From assembly GCF_001722335.1 (NCBI RefSeq), contig NZ_MIHA01000005.1:186001-250000 (forward strand): 64,000 nt of DNA. The letters run 5' to 3'. This DNA comes from Mycolicibacterium flavescens. Lineage in GTDB: Bacteria; Actinomycetota; Actinomycetes; Mycobacteriales; Mycobacteriaceae. Shown one piece after another: positions 3,427 through 12,887 of this stretch. The notes under the pieces were generated by a model, which saw only the letters and a program-made list of their open reading frames with translations, did not search any database and was not told where the DNA came from. Numbering within the stretch: the first letter of the stretch is position 1; each line of letters begins with the position of its first letter. The translations under genes and the position numbers were made by a program.

Positions 3427-4104
3427 GTGCCGGGGGCTACGGACACGCAAGCCGACGTTTCGGTCGCGGTAATCGACGGCCACGACGTGGTGCACGCCGG
3501 CATCGAGGCGTGGGCGACGGGAAGCCGACCCCGGATGAAGGTGGTCGGGCACTACTCGCATCCGCGGGAGTTCATCGATCACCACCCCGCCGCCACCCCG
3601 GCAATCGACGTCGTGCTGTTCGGCCTCAAATACGAGGGCGCCGGCCCGGAGTTCGACGCGCTGCGGGAGCTGTGCGCCCGCGGGTTCCGCGTCGTCGTGT
3701 ACTCCTACCTCAGCGGTGACGAGATCATCCTCACCAGCCTTGACGCCGGCGCGGTCACCTACGTGCTGAAATCCGAGAGCGGGCAGCACCTCGCGGACGC
3801 GATCTACGCGGCCACCACCGACACGCCGTACGTCGCGCCGTGCATGGCGCAGGCCCTGCGCAACGGTGAGGTGCTGGGCCGGCCACGGCTGAGCACCCGC
3901 GAGCGCGAGGTTCTGGTCGCCTGGTGTCAGACCGAGAACAAGGACCGGGTCGCGCGGCGGCTGTTCGTCGAACCCTCGACAGTGCGCACGCACTTGCAGC
4001 GGGTCCGCGCGAAGTACGCGGCCGTCGGCCGGCCGGCCCCGACCAAGGCGTCGCTGATCGCCCGGGCCATCCAGGACGGCATCGTCAACGTCGACGACCT
4101 CTAG
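3427..4104 (+). CDS. LuxR/NarL-type regulator with a receiver domain lacking the phospho-acceptor Asp
   Basis: The product has 225 residues and starts at GTG behind a G-rich ribosome binding site. The N-terminal half (about 10-130) has a CheY-like fold: the acidic-pair position reads VIDGHDVVHAG, and the usual phospho-Asp position reads VVLFGLKYEG, with Gly instead of Asp. The later conserved Lys is kept (YVLKSES). The C-terminal LuxR HTH starts at LSTREREVL (about 157) and includes STVRTHLQRVRAKY. Without the Asp it is unlikely to be controlled by ordinary histidine-kinase phosphorylation; phosphorylation on Ser/Thr by the neighbouring kinase, or ligand binding, is possible. It ends 9 bases from the convergent stop of the kinase gene, splitting the two halves of the system. 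Confidence 0.9.
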   Translation: MPGATDTQADVSVAVIDGHDVVHAGIEAWATGSRPRMKVVGHYSHPREFIDHHPAATPAIDVVLFGLKYEGAGPEFDALRELCARGFRVVVYSYLSGDEIILTSLDAGAVTYVLKSESGQHLADAIYAATTDTPYVAPCMAQALRNGEVLGRPRLSTREREVLVAWCQTENKDRVARRLFVEPSTVRTHLQRVRAKYAAVGRPAPTKASLIARAIQDGIVNVDDL

Positions 4105-4113
4105 ACCCGTCAG

Positions 4114-6429
4114 TCAGTTCGCCGCCGCCGCGATCCCGATGACGATCAGGACCACCACCGCCACCGCGACGATGCCCAGCGCGATCAGCAGCACGAAGCA
4201 CAGCGCCGAGAGCGCCAGCGGCACCAGACACAGCCCGCCGAAACCGATCGCGGACTTGGTCGCGGTGTCCGCCAGCCGCGAATCCATCTCCGCGAAGTTG
4301 ACGATGACCACCATCAGCACCAGCGCGGCGATCGCCAACACCAGGGCGACCTGCTGGAACGTCGCGCTCGGGAAGTTGAGGATCTCGTAGACCCAGCTGA
4401 ACGGCCACTCGCGGGTCTTGGGCACCTTCGGGGTCAGCATGATGTGCGCGATCAGCGCCGCGACGGCGATGGCGGCCGCGCCGAGCGCGCGCAACGTCAA
4501 ACCGTTCTTGATCTCCCGCTGACGCGCCCGCGCGGCTTCGGCGGCGGCGGCTTCGGCGGCGAGCTGCCGTTCGTGTTCGGCGGCTTCGGCGGTGGCGCAG
4601 GCCTGGTCGTAGTGCCGGGCGAGGTCGACGACGCCGGTGGCCAGCGCGGTCGCGGCGATCTGGCCGGGATCGGCGTCGGCGCTGTCCGGCGGGGTCTGGC
4701 GTGCGCCCGGTCTGGCCTGCGTGCACAGCGCGGCGAACCAGTGCGGGCCGCTGCGGTCGAGTTGGTTGAGGTCGCGGCGCAGATCGGCCAGCACAGCCGG
4801 TGACAGCAGCGCCGCGCGCGCGACGCCCTGAGCGCGGATGATGCGCCGCGCCATCGCCTCGCGCACATCGACACCCACGTCGACGCCGGCCACCCGCGTG
4901 GCCGCGGCCTGCACGATCGCGGCCGCGGCGGTGTCGATGCGCTGGTCGATGTCCTTCGCGTACCGCGACAACCGGGCCAGCGCGTAGTACTCCCCGGACT
5001 GGCCGGCCGGTCCGGCGTTCTCGTCGAACTGGGTCGCGACGAGCGCCGCGATCACGTCGGGTTCCAGCGTGTGCAGCAGCGGATCGCGCGGCCACGTGTC
5101 ACCGGCCTGCAGGTAGCGCACGGCCAGGTCGCGCGAGTTGATCCGGGAACCGCGGTAGATCACGTCGCTGCCGCGGTAGTGCGCGGCGAACTCCAGGATG
5201 CGCGCGTCGATCTGGGACCGCCGGCCGCCGATCGGGGTCAGCAGGTTGGTCTCGATGTGGGTGTCGCGGACGTCCTCGCGGATCCAGGCGCGCAGCGCGT
5301 CGCACTGCTCTTTGGAGGTGAACAGCGACACCGCCGCGTCCCAGTTCGTCACCATGTGGGCGGCCAGTGCGACCGGATCGGTGAAGCGGCGCCCGTCGAA
5401 CCGGAACGCGGCGATCGGCCCGCCCGCGCGGATCGGCGTCGCCCGTGCCGCCGCGACGGGCGGGGTGTCGCCGTCGAGCCACGCGTGGATCTGCGGGGCG
5501 CTCCACCGGTCGGCCGGATTGTGCACCAACAGCCCGCGGCACAACAGGTTCCAGCGCGGGTCGGCGACCGCCGACAGGTCGATGTCGCCCATCGTGATCG
5601 CGTGCCGGATGGCGTTCTCGTCACGCAGCGGCCGGCCCCTGCCGTCCTTGAACGGGTGCTGTCCGGTCAGGACCTCGCACATCATCATGCCGACTGCCCA
5701 CCAGTCGCGGCTGCGGCCGGCGTTCGGCGTGTTGAGGGTTTCGGGCGACTGGTACACCAGGGTGCCCTTGATCCCGCCGCTGGTGTCGCGTCGCGACTGC
5801 CGGGTGGCGGCCAGTTCGGCCGCGATCCCGAGGTCGGCGAGCACGAGGTCGAGCGGTTGGCGCCGCCGGATCAGGATGTTGGCGGGTTTGATGTCGCGGT
5901 GCACGATGCCCATGTGCTGGTGGATGTACTGCAGCGCGTCGGTCATCTCGACGAGGATGTCGAGCGCGAGTTGCGGGGCCCGCCCACCCGAATTCGCCAG
6001 CAGCGTCTCCAGTGAGCCCTCGGGCAGGTAGTCCATCACCTCGATGAATCGCGGTGCGCCCCAACCGTGGTAGGTCGACCGGGTGACGGGCAGGACGTGC
6101 GCGGGGTCGGCCGCGGCGAGGCGGTCGACGAACGCCTGCGACAGCGTGATGCCGCGGTGGTAGATCTTCACGACTTTGCGCGCCCCGTCGCGGCGGCGCT
6201 GGATGACCGCGACGTTGGCCTCGCCGCCGGAGTCGAGGTCCTCGACGAGGTCGAAGTCGGCCTCCAGGTAGTCCGGCAGCCGCAGGGCGCTGCGCGGCGG
6301 GGCGGCGTACCGCGCGTCGCGGACGGTGGCGGGGCGCGCATCGCGCGCGGTGGGCGGGCGTTGGTCGCGCGCGGTGGGCGGACGCTGGTCGCGCGACGTC
6401 GGCGGACGCCAGGGAGGTGGTTCAGTCAT
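4114..6429 (-). CDS. membrane-anchored Ser/Thr protein kinase
   Basis: The product has 771 residues. A Pro/Arg-rich head (1-50) contains four 8-residue repeats. The kinase domain (about 55-330) keeps the key residues: SGGE loop (67-70), VVKIY with Lys88, HRDIKPANIL (177-186), DLG at 199-201 in place of DFG, and the SPE motif in YQSPETL. So it should be active. About 300 residues of unknown helical sequence follow, then an Ala/Glu coiled-coil stretch and a C-terminal part with about four TM segments, which puts the kinase on the cytoplasmic face. The ATG lies inside the end of the PP2C gene (8-base overlap), giving a kinase-phosphatase pair. It is the last gene of the seven-gene operon and converges on the LuxR-type gene. 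Confidence 0.93.
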   Translation of the reverse strand: MTEPPPWRPPTSRDQRPPTARDQRPPTARDARPATVRDARYAAPPRSALRLPDYLEADFDLVEDLDSGGEANVAVIQRRRDGARKVVKIYHRGITLSQAFVDRLAAADPAHVLPVTRSTYHGWGAPRFIEVMDYLPEGSLETLLANSGGRAPQLALDILVEMTDALQYIHQHMGIVHRDIKPANILIRRRQPLDLVLADLGIAAELAATRQSRRDTSGGIKGTLVYQSPETLNTPNAGRSRDWWAVGMMMCEVLTGQHPFKDGRGRPLRDENAIRHAITMGDIDLSAVADPRWNLLCRGLLVHNPADRWSAPQIHAWLDGDTPPVAAARATPIRAGGPIAAFRFDGRRFTDPVALAAHMVTNWDAAVSLFTSKEQCDALRAWIREDVRDTHIETNLLTPIGGRRSQIDARILEFAAHYRGSDVIYRGSRINSRDLAVRYLQAGDTWPRDPLLHTLEPDVIAALVATQFDENAGPAGQSGEYYALARLSRYAKDIDQRIDTAAAAIVQAAATRVAGVDVGVDVREAMARRIIRAQGVARAALLSPAVLADLRRDLNQLDRSGPHWFAALCTQARPGARQTPPDSADADPGQIAATALATGVVDLARHYDQACATAEAAEHERQLAAEAAAAEAARARQREIKNGLTLRALGAAAIAVAALIAHIMLTPKVPKTREWPFSWVYEILNFPSATFQQVALVLAIAALVLMVVIVNFAEMDSRLADTATKSAIGFGGLCLVPLALSALCFVLLIALGIVAVAVVVLIVIGIAAAAN
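6298..6393 (-). repeat. four in-frame 24-bp repeats in the kinase head
   Basis: Residues 13-44 of the kinase are four 8-residue units: RDQRPPTA, RDQRPPTA, RDARPATV and RDARYAAP. The DNA shows the same 24-base periodicity. Each of the first three units carries a Thr, which could be a phosphorylation site recognised by the FHA protein of the operon; that is inference. Confidence 0.7.
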
Positions 6430-7150
6430 GCACTGCCCCCACAGAGATCAACGCGAACGAGAAGTTGTCGTGGGCGCCGCCCTGGCGGGTGGCGTCGACG
6501 ATCGATTCGGCGACCTCGGCGAAGTCGGCCTTCATCACCGCGGCGCGCAGACCGGCCGCGGTCATCACGCCGCTCACCCCATCCGAGCACAGCAGATAGC
6601 TCGTGCCGTCGCGGGGGCACAGCGTCACGTGCGGTTCGACCGGCAGCCGCTGGCCGAGCGACTGGGTGATCGTGCTCGTCGGGCGACCCTCGGCGTCGAT
6701 AATCGCGTCGTCGGTCGAAACCTGCTGCAGGAAGCCGCTGTTCACGCTGTAGATGCGGCTGTCGCCGACGTTGAACACCGCCACCTCGCGGTCGAGCACG
6801 CAGATGCCCGCGATCGTCGTGCCCATTCCGCGCAGGTCCGGGTTCTGCCCGACCTGGAACACCCGCTCGTTGGCCTGGTGCAGCCCGGCCACCACGTCCT
6901 CGGGTGTGCGCCACGTGGTCGACACGTCGGCGATCACGCCGAGCGCCACCCGGCTGGCCAGATCTCCGCCGGCGTGTCCGCCCATCCCGTCGGCGACCGC
7001 CGCGACGAACGGCACATCGTCCGAGAACTCCATGCTGACAACGGTTCCCACCGCGGCCTGGCAGGTCCAGCCGCCGAGCAGCAGGGCGTCCTCGTTGCGG
7101 GTGCGGACCAGGCCGGTGTCGGTGAATGCGGTGGCGGCGATGCGGCTCAC
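6422..7150 (-). CDS. PP2C-family Ser/Thr protein phosphatase
   Basis: The product has 242 residues and starts at GTG overlapping the FHA gene stop (GTGA). It is a soluble PP2C (PPM) domain with the metal-binding and catalytic motifs: RNED near residues 18-21, DGMGGHAGG (54-62), GMGTT (about 108), NVGDSR (about 125), LCSDG (about 188) and DNFS near the C-terminus. It should reverse phosphorylation by the kinase encoded next in the operon. There is no TM segment, unlike PstP of the mycobacterial pknA/pknB locus, and no cell-division genes are near, so this is a separate phosphatase dedicated to this system. Confidence 0.95.
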   Translation of the reverse strand: MSRIAATAFTDTGLVRTRNEDALLLGGWTCQAAVGTVVSMEFSDDVPFVAAVADGMGGHAGGDLASRVALGVIADVSTTWRTPEDVVAGLHQANERVFQVGQNPDLRGMGTTIAGICVLDREVAVFNVGDSRIYSVNSGFLQQVSTDDAIIDAEGRPTSTITQSLGQRLPVEPHVTLCPRDGTSYLLCSDGVSGVMTAAGLRAAVMKADFAEVAESIVDATRQGGAHDNFSFALISVGAVHD

Positions 7151-7683
7151 TGACCGGTCCCCCCGATCGATACGACGGCGCGCAGGTGGGCGCCGAAACC
7201 CACGACGTCGCCGTCGGCCAGTGCGGCAGGCCGGTATTCGTCGATCTTCTCGCCGTTGACCGTCGTCCCGTTGGTCGACGCCTGGTCCTCGACGAACAGT
7301 TGCCCGTCGCGCAGGGTCACCTTGGCGTGCAGCCGGGACACGTTGGTGAAGTCCTCGATCGCCGCGCCGCAGCGCTCGACGTAGTCGCGCCCGATGGTCA
7401 GTTCACCGGCGTCGACGGTGACCGGCCCCCACGGGAACCGCAGCTCCACACCCGATGCGGGCTGGTTCGTCGCGATGTAGGCGGCGGCCTCGGCGGCGTC
7501 GCGCCGGGCTCCGGTCGAGTGCAGAGGGCACGGGACCGGCATGTCGCATCCGGGTTCGGCGCACGAATCAGTCTGCGGGTCACCGCTGTCCACGTCGGGC
7601 TCGACGGGTTCGAAGCAGCCGGGCTGCTCGCACACGTCACCGGAGAGCCGGCCGTGGGCGCGGCACCTCATCGGGGTCGCCAT
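7147..7683 (-). CDS. FHA-domain protein with an N-terminal Cys/His-rich module
   Basis: The product has 178 residues. ATG at 7683 is chosen; it lies inside the radical SAM gene (17-base overlap). Residues about 6-58 contain seven Cys and two His in two clusters (CRAHG..CEQPGC and CAEPGC..CPLH), which looks like a zinc ribbon pair. The FHA domain follows (about 80-175) with the phospho-Thr-binding signatures TIGRDYVE, SRLHAKV and STNGTTVNGEKI. FHA domains read phosphothreonine, so this is the natural reader of the kinase next door. I do not know a characterised protein with this domain pair. It may bridge the phospho-signal to another partner of the operon. Confidence 0.9.
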   Translation of the reverse strand: MATPMRCRAHGRLSGDVCEQPGCFEPVEPDVDSGDPQTDSCAEPGCDMPVPCPLHSTGARRDAAEAAAYIATNQPASGVELRFPWGPVTVDAGELTIGRDYVERCGAAIEDFTNVSRLHAKVTLRDGQLFVEDQASTNGTTVNGEKIDEYRPAALADGDVVGFGAHLRAVVSIGGTGQ

Positions 7684-8315
7684 GACACCTCCGCGAGCGC
7701 GACGCCGGCGCCGGCCAGGGCGGTTTCCAGGCGGCGCAGATCGCCGCGGCGCGGGACGCCGATCATCCACACCTGCCCGTCCTCGACGGTGACCTGCAGG
7801 GGTGGTTGTTCGGGGCGGGCATCGAGGTACGGCGCGTAGCGCTGCCGCCCACGCTCGCTCAGCGGGATCAGCCGCTGGTTGGCCGAACCGCGCCACAGCA
7901 AGTCGGTGGGTTCGGCGACGGCGAAGGGCCCGACGATCACCGCGTCGATCAGGTCGCCCGCCCAGGGGAGGACCGCGTGGAAGTCGGCTTCGTCGCGGCC
8001 GGTGTAGCACAGCACGTCGCCGGTGAAGACCCCGTCGCGGCGCAGGGCGTCGACACCTTCGAGCAGGGCTCGTAGGGCGACGGGCTGTTCGGTCGGTTCG
8101 CCGCCGGAGATCGTCAGCCCGTCGACGTCGCCGAGTCCGGTGAGCCACGCCAGCACGTCGTCGACGTCGAGCGCGGTGCCGTCCCCCGGTGCCCAGGTGT
8201 CGCGGGACACGCAGCCCGGGCAGCCGATCGAGCAGCCCTGCACCCACAGCCCCGCCCTGGTGCCCGGTCCGAGCGCGGTGACCGGGTGGTGCAGCCGGGA
8301 GATATTGATCCTCAT
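7668..8315 (-). CDS. small radical SAM protein of the NrdG/activase type
   Basis: The product has 215 residues. It has the radical SAM cluster motif CSIGCPGC (Cys28, Cys32, Cys35; CX3CX2C), the GGE motif at 71-73 (GGEPTEQP) and an NrdG-like LWRGSANQR stretch near residue 145. It resembles anaerobic ribonucleotide reductase activases, which use one 4Fe-4S cluster and S-adenosylmethionine to make a glycyl radical. No glycyl radical enzyme is encoded in the window and no RNR gene is near, so its target is open. Its fixed place between the AAA+ gene (ATGA overlap) and the FHA gene suggests it modifies a protein of this operon or its client. Confidence 0.92.
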   Translation of the reverse strand: MRINISRLHHPVTALGPGTRAGLWVQGCSIGCPGCVSRDTWAPGDGTALDVDDVLAWLTGLGDVDGLTISGGEPTEQPVALRALLEGVDALRRDGVFTGDVLCYTGRDEADFHAVLPWAGDLIDAVIVGPFAVAEPTDLLWRGSANQRLIPLSERGRQRYAPYLDARPEQPPLQVTVEDGQVWMIGVPRRGDLRRLETALAGAGVALAEVSWRPR

Positions 8316-10132
8316 CGCAGTTCGAGTTCCCAGTTCTGCCCGAGCTTGGTGGCCTGCGCGATCTCGACGGGGACGATGTCGGGCATCGCGAACAGCGCGC
8401 GTGACAGCGGGTTGATCAAAATGGTCTCGATCGCCGACACGACGCCGCGTCCGCCGTTGTTGGAGTCGGCGGTGGCCGCGGCCCGGATCGTGGTGCGCGC
8501 CTCGTCGGACATCGTGATCGGCACCCCGAACCGGGTGGACGCGGTGTCCAGGGCCCGCGAGATCGACCCCTCGGCGATGTCGGCGAGCACCTCGGTCGGC
8601 AGGAAGTTGAACACCACGACACCTTCGCGCAGGCGGTTGTACAGCTCGGGGCGGCCGAGGGTCTCGCGGAAGTGGATCTCGATGTAGTCGCGCACCTTGG
8701 TGTCGATGGCATCGGGCGGGTCGGCGATCGTCACGTTGTTGACCGGCCGGCCGTCGGGCCCGGGGATCACGATGCCGAGGTTGGTGGTGAACACGATGAT
8801 CGACTCGGTGAAATGCACGGTGGCGCCGCGGCCATCGGTGAGCCGGCCATCGTCGAGGATCTGCAGGAACTTGTCGAGGATCCGCGGGTGGGCCTTCTCG
8901 ATCTCGTCGAACAGGATCACCTGGAACGGCCGCGCCCGCACTCCGTTGGTGAGCTCACCGCCGGCGTCGAACCCGACGTAACCCGGCGGCGCGCCGATCA
9001 GCCTGGCCTCGTTCTGCTCGGCGGCGAATTCGCTCATGTCGAAACGCAGGTAGGCCTTCTCGTCGCCGAACACGATCTCGGCGATCGCCTTGGCCAGCTC
9101 GGTCTTGCCGACACCGGTCGGACCGGCGAAGAACAGCACCCCGCGCGGCCGGCTCGGCTGACCGCGCATGTGTGCGCCACCGAGGCCGATCGCCGCGCGT
9201 TTGAGGATGTCGAGGGTGCGGATCACCGCGTGCGGCTGCCCGAGCACCCGTTCGGCGAGCTCGACGTCGGCACCCGCGATACGTTCGCGCAGTTCGGGTT
9301 TCACCCACGGGTTGTCCGGCACACCGATGCGGTACGCGCGGACGGCGTCGGCGATCTCGGTGGCGGGCACCTCGCTGGCGGCGGCCAGCGCGCAGATGTC
9401 GCGGATCGCGCGGCAGTGCAGCCCGTGGGTCAACTCGGCGAACGTCTCGACCAGGGCGTCGCCGTCGTCGGCCGGGAAGCCCGGCACCCGGCGCAGCATC
9501 AGGTCGCACATCTGCAACCGCGCACCCAGATCCGGTGTGGGCACCACGGTGGTGCGGATCGCGTGGTTGCCGGAGCTGAACCAGGCCGGCAGGTCGCCGG
9601 GCTGGTCGATCAGCCAGACGATCACCGGATAACTGCCACCGAAACGCACAGCGTCGTAAGCCAATTGGTTGGCCGCCGCCAGAAACGTGCGCTGCTCCTC
9701 GGTCAGCGGATCGTCGAACAACCGTCCGGCGTCGGGGAACATCAGCGCGATCGGTGCGCCGGGGTCGACGCCGGGCTGCACGGCGGTGAGCGCCTCGAGC
9801 ACCTGCCGCAGCATGTCCCACGACAGCCGGGCCCCGAGTTCGAGGTTGTTGACCGCGCCGAGGATCCGGCTGGCGTCGGGGGTGAAGGAACCGGTCTTGT
9901 CGGCGACGACGGCGAGCCCGGCCGAATGCGTGTAGGTCAGCATCGCCGCGAAACCCTGCTCGCGCAGCACGAACCACAGCGCGTCGGTCATCGACATCGG
10001 CCACCGCCGCCCGGCCGGGTCGTCGAGCAGATACATGTCGCGCAGGTTCCCGGTCAGGATGAGCTGCGGGTGCATGCGGGTGGCGAGGTCGATCTCGCGG
10101 ATCCAGGCCGGCCGCTGCTGCGGCGCGGTCAC
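8312..10132 (-). CDS. AAA+ ATPase with a ClpB-D2-like module
   Basis: The product has 606 residues and starts at GTG (GTGA overlap with the upstream gene). Residues about 15-270 look like a degenerate AAA module with no Walker A. The second module has Walker A GPTGVGKT (337-344), the pore loop GYVG (384-387), Walker B VILFDEIEKAH (405-415), sensor-1 TTN and a ClpB-type C-terminal small domain. It has no Clp N-domain, no coiled-coil M-domain and no ClpP-binding loop that I can see. It should form a ring that unfolds or remodels proteins. In this context the client may be a phosphorylated or radical-modified partner. It resembles ClpV of type VI secretion only in being a Clp-like ATPase beside kinase, phosphatase and FHA genes. 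Confidence 0.92.
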   Translation of the reverse strand: MTAPQQRPAWIREIDLATRMHPQLILTGNLRDMYLLDDPAGRRWPMSMTDALWFVLREQGFAAMLTYTHSAGLAVVADKTGSFTPDASRILGAVNNLELGARLSWDMLRQVLEALTAVQPGVDPGAPIALMFPDAGRLFDDPLTEEQRTFLAAANQLAYDAVRFGGSYPVIVWLIDQPGDLPAWFSSGNHAIRTTVVPTPDLGARLQMCDLMLRRVPGFPADDGDALVETFAELTHGLHCRAIRDICALAAASEVPATEIADAVRAYRIGVPDNPWVKPELRERIAGADVELAERVLGQPHAVIRTLDILKRAAIGLGGAHMRGQPSRPRGVLFFAGPTGVGKTELAKAIAEIVFGDEKAYLRFDMSEFAAEQNEARLIGAPPGYVGFDAGGELTNGVRARPFQVILFDEIEKAHPRILDKFLQILDDGRLTDGRGATVHFTESIIVFTTNLGIVIPGPDGRPVNNVTIADPPDAIDTKVRDYIEIHFRETLGRPELYNRLREGVVVFNFLPTEVLADIAEGSISRALDTASTRFGVPITMSDEARTTIRAAATADSNNGGRGVVSAIETILINPLSRALFAMPDIVPVEIAQATKLGQNWELELR

Positions 10133-11331
10133 AGCGTCCGCCTCTTCTCGGCGGGCTTGGCAGCCCTGGCGGCCGAGGGTTTCACGAGTTTGTCGTCGGC
10201 GACCTTCTGCACGGCGTAGGCGCCCGGGGCGTGCCGCAGATCGACGTCGAGGTCGACGCCGTCGCGCTTGGCCAGCTCCACCATCTTGTCCAGCGCGTCG
10301 CAGAACACCCGTTCGGCCGCGGCGTCCTCGTCGGCGGTGGTGATCACGGCGTCGGAGCGCACCGCCTGCGCGGTGAACCGGTTGGATCCCGGCTCCAGCC
10401 GCACCTTGACCCCGTAGTGCGACGAGCCGTTGCGCGCGAGCGCCGCGTTTGCGCCCGACAGGTCGGTCGAGAACTGCGGTCCCACCACGTAACCCAGCTC
10501 CTGCAGCGCCCGGTGCATGACGCGCACGACGTGCTGGCGGTCGGCCTCGGCGTCGGCCTGTGCGACCGCGGCGTCGACGGCGGCGATGAGGTCGTCGGGC
10601 ACCGCGGTCGCGTCGGCGGCGATCAGTGCGGAGATGCGGTCACGCAATGCGTCGGCGGCGGGTACCTCCGCGAGGCGGGCCCGCATGGCGGTCAACTCGG
10701 CGCGGGTCGCCGCGACCGCCTCCCGGCGCGCGGTGGCGGCGCGGCTCCCGGTGATGACCAGGTCGAGTTCGTTGAGCAACAGGTCGATTCGCGTCTCCGA
10801 CCCGGCGCGCTTGATGTCGGCGACGAGTTCCTGCACCCGGGTCGGGTCGTGGTCGAGGGTCGCGAGGTCACGGATGCGACGGCCGAGACGCTCGTTGACG
10901 CGGTCCCGGTCGACGGCCGCCGGTTCAGGCGTTTGGGGGCGTGTCGATTCCCATCGTGACGCGCGGTGCGTCGTCGTCGGTTGTGCTTGTGCCTGAACGC
11001 TTTCCACGAGGCCGGCGACCTGGGCGGCGTGTGCGCTCTGCGCGGCCTCCTCGCGGGCCGCCGAAAGCGCGGTGGCCGCCTGTTCGGTCGCGGCCTGCAG
11101 GGCCTGCGCGGCGGCGGTGTACGCCGTCGAGTCCGCGTGCGCCGACGGTGGGGCGGGCCGTTCGCACGCCGGGGCGCTGCCGGCCACCTGCAGCAGCACC
11201 GCCCGGCGGGAAACGACGTCCTGCCAACGCGATTCGGCCCCCGCGTAAGCGGCCTTGGCGTCGCGCAGCATCCGGGCTTCGCGTTGTTCGGCGGTCTCGA
11301 CGTGGTAGGCGCCGCCCTTGGGTCCACTCAC
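10129..11331 (-). CDS. coiled-coil protein of unknown function
   Basis: The product has 400 residues and starts at GTG at 11331, in a GTGA overlap with the stop of the membrane protein gene; a longer in-frame ORF upstream only shadows that gene. Residues about 70-270 are rich in Ala, Glu, Gln and Arg and predict long helices or coiled coil. A more globular part (about 275-370) includes MHRALQELGYVV and FTAQAVRSDAV, and the C-terminal tail is basic (KPSAARAAKPAEKRRTL). No family is recognised. It is the second gene of the operon, directly before the AAA+ ATPase, and could be its adaptor or a structural subunit. Confidence 0.85.
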   Translation of the reverse strand: MSGPKGGAYHVETAEQREARMLRDAKAAYAGAESRWQDVVSRRAVLLQVAGSAPACERPAPPSAHADSTAYTAAAQALQAATEQAATALSAAREEAAQSAHAAQVAGLVESVQAQAQPTTTHRASRWESTRPQTPEPAAVDRDRVNERLGRRIRDLATLDHDPTRVQELVADIKRAGSETRIDLLLNELDLVITGSRAATARREAVAATRAELTAMRARLAEVPAADALRDRISALIAADATAVPDDLIAAVDAAVAQADAEADRQHVVRVMHRALQELGYVVGPQFSTDLSGANAALARNGSSHYGVKVRLEPGSNRFTAQAVRSDAVITTADEDAAAERVFCDALDKMVELAKRDGVDLDVDLRHAPGAYAVQKVADDKLVKPSAARAAKPAEKRRTL

Positions 11332-12035
11332 AGCCGGCCCCGCCCACCGAAGGCCGCGGTCACAGCGCGGGTGGCGAAGTAGGCACCGCAGTACAGCAGG
11401 ATCACCGTCAGACCGGCCGCGTTGCCGCCGCACGTGCCGCCGTCGACCGTGGAGACGAACACCGCGTGCGCGCCGAGCGCCACGGCCGCCAGGCTGGTCA
11501 CCACGATCGGTAACCGGACAACCAGGAGCCCCAACGCGAATGCGGTCGGCACCAGCACGGCGAGCACCACCAGATCCGAGGTGGTGCCGTAGGTCAGAAA
11601 CGACGTGACGGTCAGGAGCGTCTCCACCGATCCGAGCAGCGCCACGCCGAGACCGCGCCGGAACGGCTTGTGCAGCGTGACGAACGAGGCGAACGCGGCG
11701 ACTGAAGCGACCGCCAGCACGAGGATCAACGCGGCCCACCGCAGCGGTGTCGCGACTCCGTTGCCGCACACCCCGGTGGCGAATGCCAGCGCGGCGGGGA
11801 AGACCAGCAAGATCGCCATGCCGTCGTAGAGCCACATCGCCGGGCCGCGCAGGAAGTTGGAGATCGCGAACACCGCCGAAGCGATGCCGATGCCGATCGC
11901 CACCATCAGCACACCGCTGTCGGTCGAGCCGGCCGACGACACCATGGCGCCGAAAGCCACCGCGGTGACCAGGCCGCTGACGAACGGGCCGATCGCGTCG
12001 GCGTCAGTTCCCAGATTCTTGGTGCTGATGCTCAT
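11328..12035 (-). CDS. polytopic membrane protein, first gene of the kinase-AAA-radical SAM operon
   Basis: The product has 235 residues and consists almost entirely of hydrophobic segments (about seven TM helices) with short loops and four Cys in two loop regions. No transporter motif is seen. ATG at 12035 is preceded by a GGGAG about 12 bases upstream, a poor spacing. With no gene upstream on this strand for 150 bases, the operon promoter should lie in 12036-12185, shared divergently with the DUF3060 gene. It may anchor the system in the membrane. Confidence 0.85.
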   Translation of the reverse strand: MSISTKNLGTDADAIGPFVSGLVTAVAFGAMVSSAGSTDSGVLMVAIGIGIASAVFAISNFLRGPAMWLYDGMAILLVFPAALAFATGVCGNGVATPLRWAALILVLAVASVAAFASFVTLHKPFRRGLGVALLGSVETLLTVTSFLTYGTTSDLVVLAVLVPTAFALGLLVVRLPIVVTSLAAVALGAHAVFVSTVDGGTCGGNAAGLTVILLYCGAYFATRAVTAAFGGRGRL

Positions 12036-12185: not shown

Positions 12186-12887
12186 ATGAACCCGGAGGAC
12201 GACCCGGAGGCCCGGATCCGCCAGCTCGAGCAACCGCTGGCCAACTCGGGCGTCGAACTCGGCACCACCGACCCGGCCGCGACACCGCCGACGTCGCCGC
12301 TGCCGCCACCGGTCTACGCCGGCCCGTATCAGCCGCCCTACGACCAGTCGCCCTACGCGGCGCCGCCGTTCGGTGTCGCCTATCCGCAGGTAGCGAAGTC
12401 CGGTGTGCCGGTCGGGCTCGTCCTGGCGATGATCGGCGTGGTCGCCGTTCTGATCGTCGCGGGCATCGGCGCCGTCGTCTGGATGGTGTCGTCGTCGAAC
12501 CCCGGGACCAGCGCGCGGCCGGTCGGCAGCGGGTCGTTCGACGACGTGCCGACGTGGGTGCCGCCGAGTTTCCCGTCGGTGGTGGTGCCGACCGAGCAGC
12601 CTCCGCAGGTGGCGGTGGCCCCGGCGGGCGAGAATTACAGCATCTCCGGCGTCGACAACGTGGAGACCGTCGAATGCAACGGCAGCGAGATCAGCATCAG
12701 CGGGGTCAACAACACCGTGACGCTGCTCGGCCACTGCCTGAGCGTGAACGTCTCGGGTGTCGAGAACAACGTCGAGCTCGACAGCGCCGACCGGATCAGC
12801 GCGTCGGGCTTCGACAACGAGGTGATCTACCACAGCGGCGAGCCCGAGGTCGCCGCGACGTCGCGCAATATCGTCGCGAAAGGTTAG
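12186..12887 (+). CDS. DUF3060-type membrane-anchored protein
   Basis: The product has 233 residues. ATG at 12186 is preferred over an upstream GTG-type start because the sequence from [18 protein letters not shown] matches the usual head of such mycobacterial proteins (recalled). A Pro/Tyr-rich cytoplasmic stretch is followed by one TM segment (about 77-100) and an external domain of short repeats built on the pattern ISGVxNxVxxxG, typical of DUF3060 and predicted to form a small beta-solenoid. The function is unknown. It ends in a 4-base convergent overlap with the dehalogenase gene. Confidence 0.85.

Follow-up and report, generated by a model that had tools for sequence, protein, structure and literature searches.

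A 64,000-nucleotide stretch of the Mycolicibacterium flavescens genome (contig NZ_MIHA01000005.1, positions 186,001 to 250,000; hereafter the window, with coordinates counted from its first base) contains seven coupled genes on the minus strand, running from position 12035 to position 4114, all of which were confirmed. The first gene of this operon (11328..12035) encodes a membrane protein of 235 residues with seven predicted membrane stretches in a simple hydropathy scan. It is followed by a coiled-coil protein of 400 residues (10129..11331), which starts at a GTG codon and has the N-terminus MSGPKGG, and by a tandem, chimeric AAA+ protein of 606 residues (8312..10132; Pfam AAA_2, 1.8e-43). 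The fourth gene (7668..8315) encodes an NrdG-like radical S-adenosylmethionine (SAM) protein of 215 residues with CX3CX2C and GGEP motifs (Pfam Fer4_12, 6.6e-21). The last three genes encode an FHA protein of 178 residues (7147..7683, alternative start 7671; Pfam FHA, 1e-15), whose N-terminus is Cys-rich and zinc-ribbon-like by eye, a PP2C-type phosphatase of 242 residues with intact metal-binding motifs (6422..7150; Pfam PP2C_2, 7.3e-10), and a Hanks-type Ser/Thr kinase of 771 residues (4114..6429; HRDIKPAN and DLG motifs; Pfam Pkinase, 6.6e-31), which has a large C-terminal part bearing four membrane stretches in the same type of scan.

Successive genes overlap, in operon order, by 4, 4, 4, 16 (or 4), 4 and 8 bases. 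The original prediction, made from the DNA letters, had described seven overlapping minus-strand genes; all are present, with overlaps of 4–16 rather than 4–17 bases. Its domain calls, drawn from visible motifs, agree with Pfam for the AAA+, radical SAM, FHA, PP2C and kinase proteins, and the motifs that we take to be CX3CX2C, Walker A/B, HRD, PP2C and FHA signatures are all intact. FHA domains are phosphopeptide readers. No Pfam, NCBIfam or PADLOC family matched the membrane protein, and no Pfam family matched the coiled-coil protein, at E ≤ 0.01.

The AAA+ protein combines a P-loop-less AAA domain (residues ∼1–290) with an active ClpB-D2-type motor, the motor residues being conserved in all 55 AAA+ sequences aligned. 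The model of the N-terminal half (predicted local distance difference test score, pLDDT, of 92.0) aligns with p97 D1/Rpt/PAN in Foldseek and VIA-align, and the protein scores 246.7 bits against the ClpB model (cut-off 1232.1), with a match that spans residues 253–582 only. These comparisons suggest a chimera of two clades, in which a degenerate AAA domain is joined to a live ClpB-type motor. The ClpB-D2-like label of the original prediction was thus appropriate for the motor, but overlooked the additional degenerate domain. The coiled-coil protein is predicted to fold into long helices on an alpha/beta head (pLDDT of 91.4) that consists of the N-terminal strand and residues ∼270–375; the placement of the strand is read off fold alignments spanning residues 1..370. 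Its closest named relatives are from Mycolicibacterium rutilum (77%) and strain F2034L (64%). At one related locus (L083), the gene order of the operon is identical and the proteins are 77–94% identical across it.

Relatives were sought with the N-terminal half of the AAA+ protein, to keep ordinary ClpB proteins from dominating the results. The main scan, which used one peptide pattern, returned 49 loci, mostly from Actinomycetota and also from Cyanobacteria, Nitrospirae, Deltaproteobacteria, Betaproteobacteria, Leptospiraceae and others. Together with six plasmid loci, examined from the best 20 of 2,276 plasmid records, and the window itself, these give 56 loci of at most ∼21 kb each, whose genes were called with a home-made gene finder and iterated profiles. 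A radical SAM gene was called within ∼10 kb of the AAA+ gene at 51 of the 56 loci, a coiled-coil gene at 42, an FHA gene at 41, a kinase gene at 35 and a PP2C gene at 26; a six-frame check gave 52, 43, 43, 35 and 28, respectively. In a second set of 20 regions, from genomes drawn by taxonomy and not by neighbourhood, a radical SAM gene accompanies the AAA+ gene in 13.

Across these 76 loci, same-strand neighbours within 300 bases of each other were counted as adjacent. The AAA+ and radical SAM genes are adjacent 49 times (39 overlapping), the coiled-coil and AAA+ genes 35 times (27), the radical SAM and FHA genes 34 times (20), and the FHA and PP2C genes 27 times (25). The recurrence of the same overlaps elsewhere indicates that the arrangement is more than chance. 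The pairwise divergence of the proteins is correlated for seven pairs of parts, with r of 0.68–0.91 and none of 999 permutations reaching any of these values (four loci, L016, L017, L043 and L050, and sequences outside the length limits were left out of these mirror-tree counts). Such correlation is expected of co-inherited genes, although shared host phylogeny also raises it. The homologue search proposed with the original prediction therefore found a set that recurs with its overlaps and correlated divergence, not scattered homologues. The most constant part of this set is the trio of AAA+, radical SAM and coiled-coil proteins, and the FHA, PP2C and kinase proteins form a frequent second module. 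The key residues of the PP2C and FHA proteins are nearly all retained across relatives.

The seventh gene has a different distribution. Among the first 56 loci, a profile of the membrane protein matches only the window and L038, with further matches in L083 and in an opposite-strand gene of L089. The coupled set recurs, as the notion of a seven-gene unit implied, but the membrane gene was seen in mycobacterial versions only and does not belong to the widely conserved genes. The membrane protein is a candidate local effector or sensor.

Some loci carry additional recurrent genes. At three loci from Lentzea and Actinocrispum (L009, L013 and L028), a conserved five-gene block, one member of which has an OmpA domain, and a gene of the CHAT-related U1 family precede the kinase gene, and the radical SAM gene lies apart from the AAA+ gene. 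Nocardia loci (L012 and L015–L017) have a recurrent gene of 208–228 residues ahead of the coiled-coil gene, and encode a TPR protein of 776–866 residues near the operon. At L086 (genome G148), the operon is near a gene of 1,105 residues and two short genes of WXG100-like appearance by eye.

Of 53 radical SAM sequences, 49 contain CX3CX2C, and the remaining four are short or broken calls. Against the model for NrdG, the anaerobic ribonucleotide reductase activase, the window protein scores 73.4 bits, under the cut-off of 126.1 that defines that family. None of the 21 genomes of relatives searched yielded the reductase itself, NrdD (6 of 14 controls positive), and a glycyl-radical domain was found in 1 of 21 (3 of 14 controls positive). 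The radical SAM protein thus appears to be an orphan enzyme without a known client in these relatives, and a client encoded inside the operon would be the simplest alternative.

One candidate for this client is the coiled-coil protein. With the start codon read as M, 36 of 46 coiled-coil proteins begin with M-S-[GSA], compared to 19 of 726 other predicted genes there. Of the ten that begin otherwise, four carry the motif at a start slightly downstream in frame. All nine profile-defined coiled-coil members of the second set have it as well, two of them at a later in-frame start. Distant members missed by the profile start with MSG[ST]PKYS; as they were found via that start, they are not independent evidence.

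Two further observations concern the radical SAM genes. Two loci from the cyanobacterial draw (L099 and L100) have an AAA+ relative and a coiled-coil gene starting with MSGSPKYS, and the gene calls for the 20-kb region include no radical SAM gene. On a plasmid of Rhizobium sp. C104 (L050, 10986-12267), the radical SAM gene and a zinc-ribbon/kinase frame appear fragmented, and this radical SAM gene has unbroken matches on several other Rhizobium plasmids.

Effector-like genes are found beside many of the relatives. A CHAT (caspase-like) protease domain scores above the Pfam cut-off at 11 of the 56 loci (L001, L002, L003, L004, L005, L006, L008, L009, L018, L020 and L047), all within the 26 actinobacterial loci; the match at L047, where the locus is cut, is weak, and L005 was matched by genome coordinates. 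This count is a minimum, with L013, L014 and L028 outside the Pfam re-test. A weak match at the edge of L012 was excluded, and L027, whose gene is cut by the locus end, failed Pfam and was dropped. Our own CHAT profile, which matches 15 of 56 loci, was partly trained on these loci, and only matches above the Pfam cut-off are counted. In 15 genomes searched, there are 10 CHAT loci (11 with L012), compared to ∼0.23 expected from genome-wide density (the sum over the 15 genomes of CHAT matches per Mb × 0.0209 Mb); these genomes were picked after the CHAT-profile result, 11 of them having a profile match, and without this selection the count is 11 of the 26 actinobacterial loci. Genes matching the CHAT profile also occur in second-set regions L084, L087 and L097, the last from the proteobacterial draw. 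At several CHAT loci, the CHAT gene is on the opposite strand or kilobases away, outside the operon.

Other relatives have different neighbours. Plasmid loci of Leisingera, Photobacterium, Polaromonas and Moellerella have annotated AAA-domain and PIN-domain genes directly before the coiled-coil gene; Pfam identifies a superfamily-1 helicase in both of the former genes tested and PIN_4 in the one PIN gene tested. The helicase on the Photobacterium plasmid (L053) matches PADLOC MkoA (7.9e-93). At L091 (12067-18360), a single protein of 2,097 residues fuses a kinase, DUF4011, a superfamily-1 helicase and the nuclease domain REase_MTES_1575, and its broken-frame relative in Rhizobium (L050) matches PDC-S37 (2.8e-139) and Hhe (5.1e-64). 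A PIN profile of our own was also run on the second set, and its labels were discarded due to contamination with AAA+ proteins. Two distant relatives (L087 and L101) represent a second subtype, in which HSP70-like and vWA genes accompany the AAA+ protein, the radical SAM protein and a coiled-coil protein of the MSG[ST]PKYS type.

The gene set is sporadically distributed. Matches were found in at least 6 of 396 actinobacterial genomes, 4 of 198 from the genus of L038, 8 of 398 proteobacterial genomes and 6 of 194 cyanobacterial genomes; these are lower bounds, as part of the candidates was scored per genome, each count includes the central genome of its draw, and some matches are weak, distant AAA+ relatives only. 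No near match was found in Escherichia coli genomes; in a distant mode of the search nothing covered 80% of the query, and the best 20 of 1,479 records were ClpB/Clp ATPase genes over 12–13%. The set is carried on plasmids of Rhizobium, Leisingera, Polaromonas, Photobacterium, Moellerella and Aristaeella. Of the six plasmids examined, three were typed as conjugative, and a gene for a recombinase, a transposase or ArdA lies close by in three.

The immediate surroundings of the window operon vary as well. Eight relatives (the top eight of 119 matching genomes once L083 is set aside) keep its right flank, in which DUF3060, haloalkane-dehalogenase-like and other genes retain their order, without the operon. 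In the 20 kb examined of each, we found none of the seven genes, nor either of two genes on the other side of the operon: a LuxR-type response-regulator-like gene (3427..4104, plus strand), which is convergent with the operon, and a gene of 818 residues (484-2940). The genomes that matched in the actinobacterial and same-genus surveys include none of these eight. Relatives of the LuxR-type gene lie near the core in L001, L003, L005, L012 and L083, which suggests that it is probably associated with the operon. The 818-residue protein has no Pfam or NCBIfam family at E ≤ 0.01, and its gene is kept beside the operon in L083. An 87-base tRNA-Ala called by ARAGORN inside the DUF3060 gene (12238-12324) is probably a false positive, as the orthologous region of L083 is without it, and is probably not an integration site.

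Comparison of the loci points to an AAA+/radical SAM/coiled-coil core coupled to a kinase-FHA-PP2C switch, often beside varying effector-like genes. That this gene set is a horizontally mobile, modular conflict system, for immunity or regulated self-destruction, has in our judgement about an even chance of being correct. The original prediction had offered stress sensing or defence; the CHAT, helicase, PIN and nuclease neighbours of relatives favour the latter, and stress sensing is less favoured. A more specific working can be proposed tentatively, as the possible, though less likely than not, basis of a new class of immune or programmed-death system. In the resting state, the phosphatase would hold the switch off. 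Phosphorylation would rise upon a trigger, for instance when the membrane kinase senses infection or damage to the envelope, or when the phosphatase is inhibited, and the Cys-rich/FHA adaptor could then dock the phosphorylated partner on the AAA+ ring. The dead first ring may hold the coiled-coil protein, with threading or remodelling carried out by the live second ring. A dedicated partner, for which the coiled-coil protein with its N-terminus is one possibility, would be modified by the radical SAM enzyme and thereby licensed or marked. The remodelled complex would finally free the local, interchangeable effector: the CHAT protease, the superfamily-1 helicase with its RNase-like PIN partner, or the kinase-fused helicase-nuclease.

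Several observations weigh against this proposal. All six core and switch genes occur together at just 18 of the 56 loci and in 5 of the 20 regions of the second set, and in seven of these 20, mostly with weaker AAA relatives, no radical SAM gene was called. The HRDxKxxN motif is present in 24 of 39 kinase sequences, and the kinases of some relatives may be variant or inactive. Remodelling of a radical-modified client by the AAA+ protein, as the original prediction envisaged, is consistent with the scarcity of NrdD and of glycyl-radical domains and with the shared M-S-[GSA] start, but the start and the enzyme do not always coincide. Four alpha-, beta- and gammaproteobacterial plasmid versions start with MSEY, MSKI, MSRA and MYLD beside a radical SAM gene; conversely, at L008, L099 and L100 the coiled-coil protein begins with M-S-[GSA] and no radical SAM gene was found within the locus, which loosens the link between the two. 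The start could be purely structural, since the fold matches extend from the N-terminal strand to the alpha/beta head at the C-terminus. No CHAT, helicase-PIN or helicase-nuclease effector adjoins the window operon, so that there the kinase itself (as in KKP, see below) or the membrane protein would have to act. The CHAT profile likewise has no match in the L038 stretch; the genome of this locus (G001) has two CHAT matches, both outside it. No PADLOC model matches the membrane, coiled-coil, radical SAM, FHA or PP2C proteins of the window, and the PADLOC matches to its kinase and AAA+ protein look like generic domain matches. A scan of viral contigs revealed no relative of the AAA+ N-terminal half, and phage records no relative of the coiled-coil protein.

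Some of these points would suit a regulator that senses stress or the envelope, in which the membrane kinase and PP2C control, via the FHA protein, a disaggregase-like AAA+ protein that remodels a coiled-coil scaffold for the benefit of the host, with no abortive or antiviral role. The window has a membrane kinase, a membrane protein with seven stretches, a LuxR-type neighbour and a ClpB-type motor, and the CHAT profile has no match in the window stretch, L038, L083, L088 or L089. However, the set is sporadic even within one genus (4 of 198 genomes) and is carried on plasmids, and helicase, nuclease, PIN or CHAT partners elsewhere are unlike a housekeeping system; we regard such a regulator as unlikely. 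NrdG-like enzymes have the same fold as small-molecule radical SAM enzymes, and the usual glycyl-radical client was not found in nearly all genomes searched, so the radical SAM protein might instead make a small product, a modified peptide or nucleotide, that acts as signal or toxin, is handled or released by the AAA+ and coiled-coil proteins and is regulated by the phospho-module. The part of PMC7159879 considered here predicts peptide modification by radical SAM enzymes for other conflict systems. Nevertheless, no gene for a short precursor peptide is repeatedly found next to the core in the tabulated operons, where genes of fewer than 45 codons were not called, and no transporter was recognised among the annotated recurrent neighbour families, which leaves this explanation rather improbable.

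Type VI secretion also employs a Ser/Thr kinase, PP2C, an FHA protein and a ClpB-like ATPase. By analogy, these four domain types, together with weak profile matches to TagH-like FHA and ClpV1, could indicate a regulator of a cryptic secretion or contractile machine. These matches are far under the curated cut-offs (38.8 compared to 120.25 bits and 200.6 compared to 884.95 bits, respectively), and no sheath, baseplate or tube gene was recognised among the annotated neighbours, for which no dedicated profile search was made; we consider such a regulator very improbable. Each domain type of the operon is common in actinobacteria, which might allow a chance grouping of ordinary domains, or a misread NrdG operon. 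The same order with short overlaps across phyla and the correlated divergence argue against the former, and the lack of NrdD in all 21 genomes against the latter, making either barely credible.

If the conflict-system proposal is correct, it describes a widespread system with unusual core chemistry, namely a radical SAM enzyme lacking a known client, and with a motor that is an AAA+ chimera of two clades. It would also tie Hanks-kinase signalling to caspase-like and nuclease effectors in bacteria. For NrdG-like proteins, labelled in some sources as activases of anaerobic ribonucleotide reductase, it would offer a new testable role in hosts without NrdD. The plasmid versions are compact enough for study in laboratory bacteria.

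None of the testable known families fits the window operon. The original prediction matched it to no named system, and we found no description in full-text searches of 5.39 million open-access papers; subscription papers were outside this scope, so a prior description is possible. The active D2-type motor is shared with the ClpB/ClpV disaggregases, but a ClpB disaggregase has two active AAA rings and a score above the equivalog cut-off; here the first AAA domain is P-loop-less and the score is far lower. TerY-P triads consist of a vWA protein (TerY), PP2C and a kinase. The window operon likewise combines a kinase with PP2C, but no vWA or Ter family is present among its seven proteins. Mokosh type I is defined by the kinase-helicase MkoA, and the helicase of relative L053 (MkoA) and the kinase-helicase of L050 (PDC-S37 and Hhe) match the models of Mokosh and Hhe/PDC-S37. 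In the window, however, MkoA covers residues 122–389 of the kinase only and no helicase family is present among the proteins. At L053, none of the MkoA, Hhe and PDC-S37 models matches the AAA+, radical SAM or coiled-coil protein.

The prophage-encoded KKP system, with two kinases and a phosphatase, resembles the operon in its balance of Hanks kinase and phosphatase, which in KKP has an antiphage outcome (PMC11341870). The window operon has one Ser/Thr kinase rather than two, although some relatives have two (e.g. L010, L026 and L052), and no AAA+, radical SAM or FHA partner is named in the part of that source considered. There is also a resemblance in overall logic to the vWA-MoxR ternary and GAP1-N2 conflict systems, described in the portion of Kaur et al. 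(2020, PMC7159879) covered here as a chaperone-type NTPase core with exchangeable effectors. Some GAP1-N2 loci combine a kinase, PP2C and vWA and others include HSP70, and the HSP70-like and vWA genes of L087 and L101 recall such chaperone-gated systems. Some ternary systems also have radical SAM enzymes, named there as SPASM-fused and Memo-related, in contrast to the NrdG-like protein of the window; the coiled-coil/AAA+/NrdG-like core is not mentioned in the covered text, figures excluded. The window AAA+ protein is an AAA_2/ClpB-type pseudo-AAA chimera, not a MoxR protein, and no vWA domain is present among the seven proteins (VMAP, iSTAND and GAP1 were outside the profile comparison). We view the operon as a variant of the modular conflict systems gated by NTPases, broadly defined, whose core is unusual.

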